A stretch of DNA of 56,056 nucleotides, taken from positions 1 through 56,056 of the forward strand of contig JAQTUQ010000008.1 of NCBI GenBank assembly GCA_028707255.1, read 5' to 3'. The notes under the pieces are model-generated. The model was not told the DNA's origin. It saw only the letters and a program-made list of their open reading frames with translations, and searched no databases. Position numbers and translations under genes: made by a program. Source of the stretch: Dehalococcoidales bacterium. GTDB lineage: Bacteria > Chloroflexota > Dehalococcoidia > Dehalococcoidales > UBA5627. Positions 48,319-56,056 of this stretch are shown piece by piece (within the stretch, counting starts at the first letter, position 1; every line of letters starts with the position of its first letter).

Positions 48319-48347
48319 TTGACAAATGTTTTTTACAGTGATATATT
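48319..48347 (+). promoter_or_regulatory. Promoter of the aro operon
   Basis: TTGACA (48319-48324), 17 bases, TATATT (48342-48347), with TG before the -10. Only one base differs from the full consensus. Start of transcription near 48354, about 30 bases before the leader peptide. Confidence 0.87.
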
Positions 48348-48384
48348 CCCCGTATATAAGTGTAGAAGAGAAGCAGGAACAATA

Positions 48385-48468
48385 ATGTTAAATAGGAATA
48401 CCTCCGCTTATTATACATATTACGTGTTTACCTGGTGCCGTAACGGCACCCGGGGGGTATTTGATTGA
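48385..48468 (+). CDS. Aromatic-rich leader peptide of the aro operon attenuator
   Basis: 27 codons from ATG 48385 to TGA 48466-48468, with AGGA seven to ten bases upstream. The peptide starts MLNRNTSA and continues YYTYYVFTWC. Seven of 27 residues are aromatic: four Tyr (48409-48414 and 48418-48423), two Phe and one Trp; the main cluster lies at 48409-48435. It sits between the operon promoter and an intrinsic terminator, which is the layout of trp, phe and similar leader peptides. It is not expected to have a function as a protein; its translation speed is the signal. Tyr codons come first and are most numerous, so tyrosine shortage should be the main trigger. Confidence 0.85.
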   Translation: MLNRNTSAYYTYYVFTWCRNGTRGVFD

Positions 48469-48512
48469 TCTGCTAAAGTATGAATTTATAAGTAAATCTT
48501 TAAAATCCTCCC
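48397..48512 (+). promoter_or_regulatory. Attenuator: alternative RNA pairings of the aro leader
   Basis: Segment 1 AATACCTCC (48397-48405) can pair with segment 2 GGGGGTATT (48453-48461), nine pairs with one G-U. Segment 2, extended to GGGGGGTATTT (48452-48462), can instead pair with segment 3 AAATCCTCCC (48503-48512), ten pairs with one G-U and one bulge. Segment 3 is also the left arm of the terminator. A 7-bp hairpin GGTGCCG-TAA-CGGCACC (48434-48450) lies inside the 1:2 loop. A ribosome stalled at the Tyr codons just after segment 1 would cover segment 1, free segment 2 and prevent the terminator; one that reaches the stop codon at 48466 would cover segment 2 and allow it. Confidence 0.8.
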
Positions 48513-48534
48513 GGTGGGAGGATTTTTTATTTTA
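48502..48534 (+). terminator. Attenuator terminator before aroF
   Basis: AAAATCCTCCC, loop GGT, GGGAGGATTTT: 11 perfect pairs, with TTTTTTATTTTAT at and after the 3' arm. It lies 34 bases after the leader peptide stop and 62 bases before aroF. Confidence 0.92.
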
Positions 48535-48595
48535 TGATATGGATTTTATCCGTGTATAGATATACAATAAAAATGAAGCGGGAGGAACAATCAAT

Positions 48596-49666: not shown

Positions 49667-50740
49667 ATGAAATCATTAAATGTAGAATTGGGAAACAAAA
49701 GCTACGATATCCTGATAGGCAGCGGTTTGCTCGACCGTACGGCCGACCTGTTATGTGAAGCTGTATTCGCAAAAAAATACATCATCGTTACCAATCCGAC
49801 CGTTGATAAATTATTCGGGAATAAAGTAAAAGAAAACCTGTCCACCAGGAATTTGCCTCTCGACCTGCTGACAGTCCCCGACGGAGAAAAATATAAGTCG
49901 CTGGATAGCGCCGGCAGCTTATATGAGGGGCTTACAGCGTGTTTTGCCGAACGCGGCACGCCGATATTAGCCCTTGGTGGTGGAGTTATCGGAGACCTGG
50001 CAGGTTTTGTGGCAGCGACCTATATGCGCGGGGTGCCGTTAATACAAATCCCTACTACCCTGCTGGCGCAGGTCGACAGCAGCATCGGCGGCAAGGTGGC
50101 GGTAGACCATGGTAAATTAAAAAATAAAATAGGTGCATTCTATCAGCCGCACCTGGTGATATCCGACACGGATACCTTGCGCACTCTTCCGCAGAAAGAG
50201 TTTGCCAACGGCATGGCCGAAGTTATAAAGAGCGCCGTTATCAGAGACATCTCTTTCTTCATTTTTATTAAAGAGAATCTGACTGCCATTATGAAGCAGG
50301 GCGGCGACATTATTGAGGACATGGTTTTCCGGGCAGCCGCTATAAAAGCATCCATAGTAATGCAGGATGAGAGGGATACGGGTTTAAGAAATATACTGAA
50401 TTTCGGGCACACCATTGGACATGCCATCGAATCCGTATCCAAATTCAAAATATCCCACGGACAGGCAGTCGCCATCGGTATGATAGCAGAAGCAAAAATC
50501 GCCAGAAGTATGGGAACATTTGAAAAGTATGAACTGGAAGAGCTTGAGAAATTGATATCGCATTGCGGGTTACCGACAAGGATGCCGGAAATAGATAGAA
50601 GTAGCATCCTGCGGGCAATGCAACACGACAAAAAGATTGCAAGTGGCAAAATCAGATTCGCCCTGCCCCGCAATATAGGGGATGTTTATCTAACCGATAC
50701 AGTAGAACCTGATATCGTCAGGGAGGCAATGGAAGATTAG
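49667..50740 (+). CDS. aroB: 3-dehydroquinate synthase
   Basis: 357 residues. Cyclises DAHP to 3-dehydroquinate; NAD and zinc or cobalt dependent. NAD site LALGGGVIGDLAGFVAATYMRG and the QVDSSIGGKVAVDH core are seen (abbreviated), and metal ligands Glu in NGMAEVIKSAVI, His in LNFGHTIGHAIE and His in ISHGQAVAIGM. Starts directly after the aroF stop and ends directly before aroD. Confidence 0.96.
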   Translation: MKSLNVELGNKSYDILIGSGLLDRTADLLCEAVFAKKYIIVTNPTVDKLFGNKVKENLSTRNLPLDLLTVPDGEKYKSLDSAGSLYEGLTACFAERGTPILALGGGVIGDLAGFVAATYMRGVPLIQIPTTLLAQVDSSIGGKVAVDHGKLKNKIGAFYQPHLVISDTDTLRTLPQKEFANGMAEVIKSAVIRDISFFIFIKENLTAIMKQGGDIIEDMVFRAAAIKASIVMQDERDTGLRNILNFGHTIGHAIESVSKFKISHGQAVAIGMIAEAKIARSMGTFEKYELEELEKLISHCGLPTRMPEIDRSSILRAMQHDKKIASGKIRFALPRNIGDVYLTDTVEPDIVREAMED

Positions 50741-51394
50741 ATGGGAAGCAACCGCATCTGCGCAGCTATTACAAACAGTAACACTGACATTTCGCAAATT
50801 GCCGCAATGGCGGATTTGTTCGAAGTGCGCATAGACTTGATTGGCAACGGCTGGCATGAAACGGCATCGGGACTCCCGAAACCCTGGATTGCCTGCAACC
50901 GCCGAAAAGAAGAAGGCGGCAACTGGCAGGGCAGCGAAGAGCACAGGATTGAAGAGATGTTAAAGGCACTTCCGCTGGGAGCAAAAATAATAGATGTCGA
51001 ACTGGCAACCCCCGGACTGGATAAAATCGTGCCGGCTATAAAACAAAAAGCGGCATGCCTGATATCATACCATAACCTGACTAAGACACCGGAGCTCGAC
51101 GAATTAAAAGACATCGTATCCAGACAGATTGCCGCCGGAGCCGATATCTGCAAAGTAGTTGTCTTTGCCAATAAAGCTGAAGATAATTTGACCGTATTAA
51201 GACTGATTTCTGAATTTACGTTAAAAAGGGTTATTGCTTTCGCTATGGGAGATAAGGGATTACCCAGTCGCATACTTTGCCCGTTGGTAGGCGGCGATTT
51301 TACCTATGCTTCATTGGAAAGAGGGGCGGAATCGGCCGCAGGGCAGATAACGGTAAAAGAAATGTATGAAATATACCGGATGGTGGAAACGTGA
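50741..51394 (+). CDS. aroD: 3-dehydroquinate dehydratase, type I
   Basis: 217 residues, type I Schiff-base enzyme. Catalytic His in LISYHNLTKTP and the Schiff-base Lys in ADICKVVVFAN; the substrate loop is FEVRIDLIGN. Removes water from 3-dehydroquinate. ATG 50741 follows the aroB stop without a gap; GTGA overlap with aroE. Confidence 0.94.
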   Translation: MGSNRICAAITNSNTDISQIAAMADLFEVRIDLIGNGWHETASGLPKPWIACNRRKEEGGNWQGSEEHRIEEMLKALPLGAKIIDVELATPGLDKIVPAIKQKAACLISYHNLTKTPELDELKDIVSRQIAAGADICKVVVFANKAEDNLTVLRLISEFTLKRVIAFAMGDKGLPSRILCPLVGGDFTYASLERGAESAAGQITVKEMYEIYRMVET

Positions 51395-52269
51395 TATCGA
51401 AGATTTCCGCCGCTACCAGAATCTGCGGTCTGATCGGTGACCCTGTAGAACACAGCATATCGCCGGCAATGCATAATGCCGCCTTTAAAAAAGCGGGCTT
51501 GGACTATGTTTACCTGCCGTTTCGAGTAACCGCCAAAAACCTACCCGGAGCCATAGCCGGATTAAAGAGCCTTGATTTACGCGGGATTAACGTTACCATC
51601 CCGCACAAGGTTGCCGTTATCCCTCTCCTCGATGAAATGGAACCTATTGCGGAAAAAATCGGGGCGGTTAACACAATTGTAAACGACAACGGGCATCTAA
51701 AGGGGTACAATACCGATGCCGCCGGATTCCTTAAATCACTATCCGCAAAAGACATAGACCCATCTGGTAAAAGGATAGTCATACTCGGTGCAGGAGGCGT
51801 TTCCAGAGCCGTTTCTTTCATGCTGGCAGAACAGGGAGCGGAAATAGAAATTCTCAATCGCAGCCAGGAGATGGAATGGGCGCAGAAACTGGCTGCAAAT
51901 ATATCACGATATTCAAAAAATAAAACCCGGGCGATGGAGCTGAACGAAACCAACCTTCAACAGGCATTGAAGCATGCCGATATTCTGGTTAATGCCACCA
52001 GCGTCGGTATGAGCCCTGATACAGATAGGACTCTCGTGCCACAGGAGCTGCTAGATCCCGGAATGGTGGTTTTCGATGTTATCTACAACCCGGAAAAGAC
52101 AAAGCTGCTTGAGGATGCCGGGAAAGCAGGAGCGATAGTAATCGGCGGGCTGGATATGCTGGTATGGCAGGGCGCTTTGGCTTTTGAACTTTGGACCGGG
52201 GTCAAAGCTCCGGTAGATACCATGAAGAATACGGTAGTTCAATTGTTAAAAAAGGCTGCTTTAATATAA
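51391..52269 (+). CDS. aroE: Shikimate dehydrogenase
   Basis: 292 residues. Reduces 3-dehydroshikimate with NADPH. Substrate site EHSISPAMHNAAFKKAGLDY, catalytic Lys in GINVTIPHKVAV, nucleotide loop ILGAGGVSRAVSFML, and NATSVGMSPD are present. GTG 51391 overlaps the aroD stop. A 125-base gap follows with a hairpin and a second promoter, so the operon divides here into two transcription units. Confidence 0.95.
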   Translation: MISKISAATRICGLIGDPVEHSISPAMHNAAFKKAGLDYVYLPFRVTAKNLPGAIAGLKSLDLRGINVTIPHKVAVIPLLDEMEPIAEKIGAVNTIVNDNGHLKGYNTDAAGFLKSLSAKDIDPSGKRIVILGAGGVSRAVSFMLAEQGAEIEILNRSQEMEWAQKLAANISRYSKNKTRAMELNETNLQQALKHADILVNATSVGMSPDTDRTLVPQELLDPGMVVFDVIYNPEKTKLLEDAGKAGAIVIGGLDMLVWQGALAFELWTGVKAPVDTMKNTVVQLLKKAALI

Positions 52270-52394: not shown

Positions 52395-52925
52395 ATGAAG
52401 ACAAACATAGCGTTAATAGGCTTTATGGGGACAGGCAAGACCACCATCGCAAAAGCGATTGCCAGAAAACTGGGCAAGACGCTCGTTGAAATGGATGTTC
52501 TTATCGAACAAAAAGCAGGCAAGAGTGTTGCTGATATCTTTAAAGACGACGGGGAAATCGCTTTCAGACAACTTGAAATAGATATTACCCGGGAAATCGC
52601 AGAGCGGGATAATCAGGTGATTGCCTGCGGCGGCGGTATAGTATTGAACAGGATTAATATCGACAGGCTGAAGAAAAATACCGTTGTTGTTTTACTTACG
52701 GTATCATTCGATGTCATCGAAAAAAGGGTTTCTGCAGATGCGGGTGTCAGGCCTTTACTTGCGGGTAGCAAAGACAAAGCGCAGACAATCAGAGAGCTCA
52801 TGACGTTCAGGCAACCGTTTTATGAAAGGTCGGCGGATATAACTGTAGATTCGTCGAATCTCGGGATCGAAGCTACAGCGGATTTAATAATAGATAAGGT
52901 CAAAAATTATGAGAGTAAGAATTAA
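52395..52925 (+). CDS. aroK: Shikimate kinase
   Basis: 176 residues. Phosphorylates shikimate at the 3-OH. Walker A GFMGTGKTTIAKAIA, substrate Asp in LVEMDVLIEQKAG, FRQLEIDITREI, CGGGIVLN and the lid Arg region DAGVRPLL. Served by its own promoter. Overlaps aroA by 17 bases. The ribosome site is weak. Confidence 0.95.
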   Translation: MKTNIALIGFMGTGKTTIAKAIARKLGKTLVEMDVLIEQKAGKSVADIFKDDGEIAFRQLEIDITREIAERDNQVIACGGGIVLNRINIDRLKKNTVVVLLTVSFDVIEKRVSADAGVRPLLAGSKDKAQTIRELMTFRQPFYERSADITVDSSNLGIEATADLIIDKVKNYESKN

Positions 52926-54165
52926 TAAAAGTGAATTACGGGGGAGGGCGGCTGTTCCCCCTTCTAAAAGTTATACCATCCGCAGCCTGATGTGCGCTGC
53001 CCTGGCTAAAGGCAAGAGCCGGATTATCAATCCGCTGATATGCGACGATACGGAGGCTGCCAGTGAAGCTCTTGGAAAAGTCGGCATCAAGATAGAGAAA
53101 AACGAAGGCTGCTGGGAAGTAACCGGCAGTCGTTTTCACGCTCCCGAAGGCGATATTTATTGCCGGGATTCCGCGGCAACTTTGAGATTTATGACAACCC
53201 TTGCCTCGATTATCCCCGGGAAATGCCGCATGGTTCCGAGCCCGTCGCTTGCCAAACGTCCTATCGAACCACTGATTACAGCTCTTAATAAACTTAAAAT
53301 TAAATGCTATCTGGAAGATTCGGCAATTGTGGTCGATGAAGGCAGGTTTTTGGGGGGAAATGTAAGCATGACCGGAGATGTCAGTTCCCAATTCGTTTCC
53401 GCTCTCTTGTTTTTATGTCCGCTGGCGGAAGCTGGACTGAACATCCGACTCACCACCACGCCCGAATCCGGCCCTTATATCGAAATGACGCTCGCTTGTA
53501 TGAAAGAATTCGGCGTAGATATAATAGCTTCTCCTACGCTTCAGTTTTTCTCCAGTGATTTCCGCCAATACAAAACAGCCGACTATACGGTTGAGGGGGA
53601 CTGGTCTACAGCTTCATATTTACTTGCCGCAGGAGCGATGACGGGAAGTACCGAAGTGACCGGACTCAACCTTAACAGTATCCAGGGAGACCGGGTAATC
53701 TTGAACCTGCTAAGTAAAATGGGAGCTTCAATATCAGCTAAAAAAGACATTATTACTTCAAGCCGTTCCAATTTTAAAGCCTTTAAGGCAGACCTGACCG
53801 ACTGTATCGACCTGCTGCCGACTATGGCTGCAGTTGCCGCTTTAGCAAACGGACAAAGCCGGCTATATGGAATTCGTCGCGCCAGGTTCAAGGAATCCAA
53901 CCGTGTCAGCGCCATCAGAGAGGGACTGGAAAGAATGAATATTCAGGTAATCGAAGAGGAAGATACCCTCATCATTAACGGAGGGAAACCGTCCGGTGCA
54001 ACTATAGACAGTTTCGGAGACCACCGTATAGCCATGGCATTCAGCCTGTTGGGAGCGGCTGTCGGTAATACCGTTATCGAGGGTGCGGAATGCGTTTCCA
54101 AGACATTCACTAACTTCTGGCAAACCCTCGAAAGCCTCGGCGCAAAGGTAGAAAGCAATGTCTGA
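52909..54165 (+). CDS. aroA: 5-enolpyruvylshikimate-3-phosphate synthase
   Basis: 418 residues. Transfers enolpyruvyl from PEP to shikimate 3-phosphate. Seen: substrate Lys-Ser in [64 protein letters not shown] and [13 protein letters not shown]. The NxGTxxR-like PEP loop of class I enzymes is read here as RDSAATLR, with Ala in place of Gly. Overlaps aroK by 17 and aroC by 8 bases. Confidence 0.95.
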
Positions 54166-55249
54166 CAGCCTCGGCAAACTTTTCACCGTAACCAGTTTCG
54201 GTGAAAGCCACGGCAAACTGATCGGTATCGTTATCGGCGGCTGTCCCGCCGGACTGAAAATCGACACGGACTGTATACAACAAGAACTGGATAAACGCAA
54301 ACCCGGCAACAATGCAGCCTCAACCCCGCGCCTGGAAGATGATAAAGCAGAAATCCTTTCCGGGGTTTTAAACGGATATACCACCGGCGCCCCGATATGC
54401 CTGTCGATCCGGAACAAAGACGCTCATTCGGAAGATTATGACGGGATAAAATTTTTGGCAAGGCCGGGGCATGCCGACTATACATCTTATGTTAAATACG
54501 GCGGATTCGGCGACTACCGCGGCGGCGGACGTTTTTCCGGCAGGATTACAGCCGGATTCGTTGCAGCCGGCGCTGTCGCCCGTGCATTATTAAAAACAAT
54601 CGAAGTCAATATCGTTGCACATACCATCGAGATAGGCGGAATAGCCGCCATGCCGCAGAATATGGATGCTATAAGACGAAACATAGATGACAATCCCCTG
54701 CGCTGCGCCGATTTCGCCGCCGCAGCCCGCATGACGGCAGCCATTGAAGATGCCAGAGCTGGTGGAGACAGCCTCGGAGGAATTATCGAGGGAATAGCCA
54801 TAGGGGTACCGGCAGGGCTGGGCGAACCCGTTTTCGACAACCTCGACGGGGAAATGGCGAAGGCATTGTTCGCCATTCCGTCGGTGAAAGGCGTGGAATT
54901 CGGCGCCGGTTTCGCCGCCGCCCGCCTGAAAGGCTCCGAGAACAACGACCCGTTCGATATAAAAGACGGAAAGGTAATTACCAAAACCAACAATGCCGGA
55001 GGCATACTGGGCGGAATCAGCAGCGGAATGCCGATAGTTTTAAAGGTAGCCGTAAAACCGACGCCATCCATAGCTAAGAAACAGCATTCGGTCGATTTGA
55101 AAAAAATGACCGTAGCAGAACTGGAAATAAAAGGCCGGCATGACGCCTGTATCGTTCCCAGGGCGGTTCCGGTTGTCGAAGCGATGATGGCAATAACGCT
55201 ATGCGACTTTGCTCTAAGGGCAGGATTACTGCCGGGGGTAATAAAATGA
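54158..55249 (+). CDS. aroC: Chorismate synthase
   Basis: 363 residues. FMN-dependent 1,4-elimination giving chorismate. All three family signatures are present: [40 protein letters not shown] and [23 protein letters not shown] overlap with pheA, 8-base overlap with aroA. A 327-codon frame on the opposite strand is a shadow. Confidence 0.96.
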
Positions 55250-56056
55250 ATCTGGATGAACTCAGGCTGCGGGTCGATAAGATAGACAAGGAAATCGTTG
55301 AGTTGATTGCGGATAGAATCAGGCTGGCCGAACAAATAGGCGAACTTAAAAAGAGTCAAGGTCGCCAGATTGAAGACAAGCAGCGCGAAGAGGCAATCAT
55401 CGATAAAATCAAGGCTATGGCTCTCCAAAAAGGACTGAAACAGGCGGATATCGAGCGCATCTACCGCCAGATATTCATCGCTTCCAAAAGCATACAAGGA
55501 GCCTTTGTCGCTTTTCAGGGAGAAATCGGCGCTTACAGCGAGGAAGCAGCCGTTAACTTTTTCGGAGCAGGCATACAGGTCAAACCCTACGAGACACTGG
55601 AAGACGTCTTCAAAGCCGTCGAGCAGGGGGAATCGGGGTTCGGTATTATACCGGTCGAAAATTCGATCGAGGGCAGTATCAGCAAGTCCTACGACCTGCT
55701 GCTGGATTCTCCTTTAAAAGTCTGCGGGGAAATCGAGCTGAGGGTATCGCATTGTCTGATAGCCAACCCCGGGGTAACGCTGGATATGATAAAAGAAATT
55801 TATTCGCATCCGCAAGCTCTGGGACAATGCCAGGCATTTATAAAGCACTTGAAGTGCGAACTGGTGCCCTCTTATGATACCGCCGGCAGCGTCAAGATGA
55901 TAAAAGAAAAGAAAATCATGGACGGAGCCGCCATCGCCGGCAGCCGCGCCGCCGCTATATATAATATGAATATCATCAATTCCGGTATCGAGGATAACCC
56001 CAATAATTTCACGCGTTTCTTCGTGCTGGCAAAAGAAGATGCACCGCCTTCGCGAA
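55246..56056 (+). CDS. pheA: Chorismate mutase / prephenate dehydratase (P-protein), cut by window end
   Basis: 270 codons in view, open at the window end. Residues 1-85 are an AroQ-type chorismate mutase ([41 protein letters not shown]). From about 88 the prephenate dehydratase starts: [49 protein letters not shown] and the catalytic Thr motif NNFTRFFVL. The C-terminal ACT domain that usually gives Phe feedback would lie beyond the window. Starts in an ATGA overlap with aroC. Makes phenylpyruvate, so the operon runs from PEP and erythrose 4-phosphate to the phenylalanine branch. Confidence 0.95.

Follow-up and report, generated by a model that had tools for sequence, protein, structure and literature searches.

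A probable leader-peptide transcription attenuator before the aroF-pheA operon of the Dehalococcoidales

The aroF-pheA operon of an uncultured member of the Dehalococcoidales (class Dehalococcoidia) is very probably controlled by a ribosome-mediated (leader-peptide) transcription attenuator, a reading to which we assign a probability of roughly 0.9. The element occupies positions 48348–48530 of the window, which here denotes the whole analysed stretch of 56,056 nucleotides. Its anatomy, its conservation and its alternative pairings can be followed base by base in this DNA and in that of the close relatives of the host (Dehalococcoidia/Dehalococcoidales MAGs). Similar leaders elsewhere in the class suggest that ribosome-mediated attenuators of a new family occur throughout Dehalococcoidia; the taxon and the regulon appear to be new while the mechanism itself is classic.

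Organization of the Operon and Its Leader

The controlled operon starts with aroF (DAHP synthase, TIGR01361; 48596–49666) and continues on the same, plus, strand with aroB (3-dehydroquinate synthase; 49667–50740), aroD (type I 3-dehydroquinate dehydratase; 50741–51394, best model slightly below its cut-off), aroE (shikimate dehydrogenase; 51391–52269), aroK (shikimate kinase; 52395–52925, best model below its cut-off), aroA (EPSP synthase; 52909–54165), and aroC (chorismate synthase; 54158–55249). The last gene, encoding a pheA-type chorismate mutase/prephenate dehydratase (55201–56055), extends past the window edge, and its real start is probably located farther inside the ORF.

All parts of the leader are likewise found on the plus strand. 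A sigma-70-type promoter (TTGACA-17-TATATT; 48319–48347) matches the consensus at 11 of 12 positions and is the best site of the region; of 68 homologous leaders, 67 carry the exact TTGACA hexamer. By inspection, a weak Shine–Dalgarno sequence (AGGA; 48375–48378) is positioned 6 nt 5′ of a 27-codon leader ORF (48385–48468), which extends from an ATG at 48385 to a TGA at 48466–48468 and encodes MLNRNTSAYYTYYVFTWCRNGTRGVFD. This peptide contains the block AYYTYYVFTW, and aromatic amino acids, a late Phe included, make up 7 of its 27 residues. The control codons (Y Y T Y Y V F T W), identified by translation and by comparison of 68 leaders, span 48409–48435. Segment 1 (AATACCTCC; 48397–48405) forms nine pairs (eight Watson–Crick and one G-U) with GGGGGTATT (48453–48461), and double changes are seen in all nine. 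Pairing and covariation define segment 2 (GGGGGGTATTT, GGGGGG-U-AUUU; 48452–48462), which pairs either with segment 1 or, through 10 pairs and one bulged U, with AAATCCTCCC (48503–48512) in segment 3. Segment 3 (48502–48512), assigned on the same grounds, doubles as the 5′ arm of an intrinsic terminator whose segment 4 and T-run (48516–48528) were located by terminator search; the stem (48502–48512/48516–48526) comprises 11 bp, encloses a 3-nt GGT loop and is directly followed by the T-run. The first Tyr codon (48409) begins 4 nt past segment 1, and the stop codon lies 4 nt past segment 2.

The promoter, the 27-codon Tyr-rich leader, segments 1 to 3, the 11-bp terminator and both 4-nt spacings had been described in an earlier note on this DNA, and every one of them was recovered at the same position. 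An inner 7-bp hairpin (GGTGCCGTAACGGCACC; 48434–48450), nested in the 1:2 pairing, was absent from that description; it is conserved with covariation (86% of cells paired, double changes in six of its seven pairs) and is probably an RNA polymerase pause hairpin.

The minimum free energy of 48354–48540 corresponds to a z-score of −2.65 relative to dinucleotide shuffles. Among 3000 dinucleotide shuffles of 48348–48595, an ATG-initiated ORF with at least six aromatics per 10 residues arose in seven and a comparable terminator in one, and none contained an aromatic-rich ATG ORF followed by a terminator in this order.

Conservation of the Leader

Using the aroF protein of the window as query, 43 orthologs with at least 64% identity were gathered within the order Dehalococcoidales. 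Directly 5′ of aroF, all 43 possess a TTGACA-type promoter, a Tyr/Phe-rich short ATG ORF and a C-rich/G-rich terminator, the latter detected by energy-based search in 42 and by eye only in the remaining one (L026); a strict perfect-stem scan retrieved terminators in only 19 of the 43, owing to bulges and larger loops. The leader frame and its aromatic block are kept in each of these 43 orthologs, and none retains the terminator after loss of the aromatic codons. Peptides such as MLVNTSPRKYYYYFAFTWRWKCAWGALS, MKNNFAPKYYYYYYFGRIKVRLGESL, and MNKHKFYAYYYFYYFFWRSSAGEGLVCMS diverge in sequence yet remain Tyr-rich. The full set of promoter, leader and terminator was not found at DAHP synthase paralogs inside trp operons. 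The same genome encodes a second DAHP synthase (G000:C33:2098-3141, L031) that is 72% identical to the aroF product of the window; upstream of it, too, no such set was found.

Among 68 distinct leaders, the aromatic block begins a median of 24 nt past the start codon and the stop codon follows the end of segment 2 after a median of 3.5 nt. There are always at least five aromatics per leader, a value to be read in light of the fact that the leader ORF of each homolog was picked partly for its aromatic content. Differences within the aromatic block are distributed over the three codon positions as 107/77/185, the third being the most variable. This conservation of the frame suggests that the leader ORF is translated. 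The alignment proposed in the earlier note thus turned out as it had anticipated, with frame and aromatic codons kept while the peptide diverges, third positions varying most and the segments covarying.

In 17 of the 67 leaders with a recognizable promoter, the start codon is located at most 14 nt past the −10 box (6–14 nt; L016, L024, L030, L037, L043, and others), and the corresponding mRNAs may be leaderless or nearly so. According to Morbach et al. (2000), as cited in PMC4046766, the ilvBNC leader peptide of Corynebacterium glutamicum is translated without a ribosome binding site. The seemingly leaderless or nearly leaderless cases, about a quarter of the total, could offer useful natural material for the study of attenuation in the absence of a Shine–Dalgarno sequence.

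Alternative Pairings

The antiterminator (2:3) and the terminator (3:4) are mutually exclusive, and the 1:2 pairing is present in addition. Across the 68 distinct leaders, segments form more stable duplexes with their own partners than with those of unrelated leaders (p = 4e-5 for 1:2 and p = 1e-4 for 2:3), although these p values are inflated through the kinship of the sequences. Compared with dinucleotide shuffles, the mean z-score of the duplexes in the same leaders is only about −1, because G-rich and C-rich segments readily pair through composition. Pair counting in model-fitted alignments (A2/A3), which were fitted to the 1:2/3:4 structure and are therefore biased towards it, found 81% of cells paired and 215 double-change cells for the terminated structure; for the antiterminator 2:3 the values are 90% and 24. 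Neither result was reached in any of 500 shuffles.

The clearest single item for pairing is a concerted change in all four segments. At one alignment position, segments 1, 2, 3 and 4 carry C, G, C and G in 30 leaders and T, A, T and A in six (L016, L018, L070, L074, L089, and L101), which is what the mutually exclusive pairings 1:2, 2:3 and 3:4 demand.

Proposed Mechanism and Constrained Folding

That the ribosome stalls, that transcription terminates, and in which direction the operon responds are predictions from the established trp/phe mechanism. Transcription would start right after 48347 and a ribosome would translate the leader. At low levels of charged tRNA-Tyr (or tRNA-Phe), the ribosome would stall within 48409–48435 and sequester segment 1, whereupon segments 2 and 3 would pair ahead of the synthesis of segment 4 and transcription would read through into aroF. 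With sufficient supply, the ribosome reaching the stop codon at 48466 would cover segment 2, segments 3 and 4 would pair, and transcription would end near 48530. Without translation, 1:2 would form and the terminator would form as well. The control codons and the stop codon are indeed placed such that a stalled ribosome masks segment 1 and a finished one segment 2. Stalls on the four Tyr codons should cover segment 1 wholly or partly; a ribosome stalled on Phe 48427 or Trp 48433 would reside between segments 1 and 2, and segment 2 would presumably be free here too.

Constrained folding, also suggested earlier, switched as predicted. With a ribosome placed on either the first or the final aromatic codon and the RNA extending up to the terminator loop, the 2:3 pairing reached a probability of ~0.98 in 65 of 66 leaders; moving the ribosome to the stop codon gave a terminator probability of 1.0 in all 66. 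Once segment 4 is added, the terminator usually wins at equilibrium even if segment 2 is free, as in the stalled state, and antitermination must therefore be kinetic. The identical calculation for Escherichia coli trpL and pheL yielded much the same pattern. Equilibrium folding is not decisive as a test of switching, since the terminator of E. coli trpL likewise wins and the order of transcription must be included; given this likeness, kinetic control would be expected and no defect. Together with the conservation of the leader and the covariation of 1:2, 2:3 and 3:4, the resemblance in folding to trpL and pheL supports the ribosome-mediated attenuator that the earlier note had proposed.

Distribution and Putative Wider Regulon

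Covariance models trained on the aroF leaders (R1 with 18 and R2 with 68 leaders) were used for whole-genome searches, whose strict filters render all counts lower bounds. R2 matches were obtained in at least 126 of the 156 Dehalococcoidales genomes searched (at least 47 of the 52 of good quality). When the sample was drawn from the whole class Dehalococcoidia, at least 54 of 343 genomes gave a match, 19 of these 54 being outside the order. Applied with strict filters to 301 genomes from the entire phylum, R1 gave no match outside the class. Leader-peptide attenuation would thus be class-wide and apparently old in Chloroflexota, existing beside the Trp T-boxes of these genomes, and it predicts the way in which aromatic amino acids are sensed by hard-to-culture Dehalococcoidia, organohalide respirers included.

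Genes other than aroF are also preceded by such elements. In some genomes of the order, Phe-rich leader attenuators are located directly 5′ of pheS (L220, L223, L225, and L231 in G666, G668, G675, and G042), whose identity was confirmed by TIGR00468 for one of the four examined loci. Fourteen leaders lie before operons in which Liv-type permease genes follow one for an AMP-dependent acyl-CoA ligase. Further targets comprise an acyl-CoA synthetase with an iorA-like gene, CoA-transferases, a HisC-like aminotransferase and operons that begin with aroB. The mean numbers of Tyr and Phe per leader are 4.3 and 2.3 before aroF, 1.0 and 4.0 before pheS, and 0.7 and 2.7 before the ligase gene (p = 2e-9). 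The identity of the control codons hence tracks the product of the regulated gene, with Tyr dominating before aroF and Phe in the four pheS and 14 ligase leaders, and thereby puts the codon-sensing mechanism to an independent test.

On balance, we lean slightly towards a Dehalococcoidia-specific regulon that arose when copies of one ancestral aromatic attenuator, with control codons changed from Tyr to Phe, were retargeted to pheS, the ligase and Liv-type operon, the acyl-CoA synthetase and iorA-like locus, the CoA-transferases, the aminotransferase and the aroB-first operons. If true, charging of Tyr- and Phe-tRNA would be tied to biosynthesis and possibly to aryl-acid salvage, with Trp served by a T-box system of its own. 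The ligase operon might act in aryl-acid salvage towards Phe; as an uncharacterized acyl-CoA ligase/transporter operon with a Phe leader, it may have a role in Phe supply, which is open to testing.

Several individual loci deserve mention. The genome of the window contains a second attenuator recognized by the same model (G000:C41:20902-21060, L132/L165) with the leader MLNKITVTISFTFSKRTEGALGGLCI before acyl-CoA ligase and Liv-type permease genes; its orthologs in other genomes have leaders rich in Phe (KFVFT, FTFTGRT). L184 (G037:C9:54546-54710), L217 and L221 precede the gene of a HisC-like aminotransferase, with a leader that features eight consecutive Tyr codons (MLIYTTAHYYYYYYYYAFTGR), which suggests a role for this enzyme in the synthesis of Tyr/Phe instead of, or in addition to, that of His. 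In L222 and L224 (G668 and G675), a Tyr/Phe leader attenuator is situated directly before aroB instead of aroF, with a divergent pheS attenuator nearby.

Sensed Amino Acids and Alternative Explanations

Tyr is encoded in all 68 aroF leaders (range 1 to 8 per leader), Phe in 67, and Trp in 53. The aro attenuator is most likely a sensor of Tyr in the first place and of Phe in the second, with Trp sensed in only some of the species. The previously suggested general aromatic sensor consequently stands for Tyr and Phe but is too broad with respect to Trp, which is absent from 15 of the 68 leaders and whose biosynthesis genes in the genome of the window are under T-box control. In the same genome, a T-box (102.8 bits) was found ~33 nt 5′ of trpE (G000:C59:49446-49698, minus strand; L032), in agreement with the T-boxes published for Dehalococcoides trpE, trpB-like and ileS (PMC2494555). 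This genome has four T-boxes, and both types of attenuation coexist in it.

The abundance of T-boxes in these genomes, including the one before the trp operon, fits a reading in which these hairpins belong to a riboswitch or a tRNA-binding (T-box-like) attenuator and the leader ORF is incidental. We regard this as very improbable, as the aro element matches no Rfam family at gathering score and no T-box or specifier architecture occurs within about 180 nt. Furthermore, the frame of the ORF, its aromatic block and its placement with respect to segments 1 and 2 are kept in 68 divergent leaders, and the codon type tracks the downstream gene. Still less credit is due to a TnaC-like arrest, in which the nascent peptide would halt its own ribosome in response to a free aromatic amino acid and the motif FTFPGRTRCAW, not tRNA charging, would be the sensor. 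Residues after the aromatic block (FT, GRT, CA) do recur in many leaders; however, their codons lie in the inner hairpin (GGCGCA..UGCGCU), which covaries, and they are missing from many others (e.g., L016, L027, L030, and L040), and the Tyr block varies from 1 to 8 Tyr between leaders. Bacteria commonly possess short leader ORFs, which were proposed to raise translation through reinitiation (PMC4833913), but an ORF serving mainly translation (by reinitiation or as a small functional peptide), with a terminator of fixed read-through and no amino acid sensing, is just as implausible, because the leader stop is ~130 nt away from aroF with the terminator in between, the alternative pairing and covariation, four-segment change included, would have no role, and the Tyr/Phe codon bias fits the operon product.

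Comparison to Known Systems

The leader-peptide attenuator of the aro operon shares with E. coli pheL and trpL the promoter, the ORF with control codons, the 1:2/2:3/3:4 segments, the stop codon adjoining segment 2 and the constrained-folding signature, and both the leader peptide and the CCTCCC/GGGGGG terminator of pheL resemble its own. There is, however, no evidence of shared descent; here Tyr codons come first and the operon encodes the common shikimate pathway. Homology to E. coli pheL was rejected, its R1 score of 20.8 bits being too weak and insignificant at genome scale. Rfam searches of the aro leader at gathering and relaxed thresholds revealed no fitting family: Phe_leader (RF01859) gave only a sub-threshold match on the minus strand (29.8 vs. 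55 bits), none on the plus strand and none in 12 homologous loci.

In E. coli, pheS is preceded by an attenuator with a Phe leader. This pheST attenuator (PMC1262725) is an analogue of the Phe-rich pheS leaders found here, but the latter match the covariance model trained on aroF leaders and look like paralogs of the aro attenuator. The leader of C. glutamicum aroF (aroR), a proposed attenuator, similarly encodes a Phe-Tyr-Phe peptide before a DAHP synthase gene (PMC4046766), and aroF is described as being under negative control by Phe and Tyr in this organism (PMC7356990). C. glutamicum belongs to another phylum (Actinobacteria), its FYF block is short compared to the at least five aromatics observed here, and the likeness is by description only. 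The Dehalococcoides T-boxes (trpE, trpB-like, ileS), present in these same genomes, also sense tRNA charging through the choice between terminator and antiterminator, but a T-box binds the tRNA directly, does not need translation, and here serves trp and not aro. As no Rfam T-box match was obtained in the window, T-box (RF00230) was discarded as the identity of the aro leader.

Leader-peptide systems have been stated to be known only in Proteobacteria and Actinobacteria, with hisS of Firmicutes added (Naville and Gautheret, 2010; PMC2965389). In the literature covered, which does not extend to the survey by Lopatovskaya et al. (2010) that may include the phylum, nothing was found on leader-peptide attenuation in Chloroflexota or Dehalococcoides. 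The statement in the earlier note that none is known for a Chloroflexota aro operon thus holds for the phylum within that literature, but an attenuator of this type before aroF has already been described in Corynebacterium (PMC4046766).

The Divergent rpsL-rpsG-fusA Leader

Divergently from the aro operon, the minus strand encodes rpsL-rpsG-fusA. The 5′ leader of these genes (48257–48100, minus strand) is near-identical throughout the genus, has its own promoter (TTGACA-18-TAGACT) and returned no match in Rfam. Just 5′ of rpsL it contains a 12-bp hairpin (AAAGGATGAGCCAAAAGCTCATCCTTT; 48156–48128, minus strand), which is possibly an autoregulatory site.
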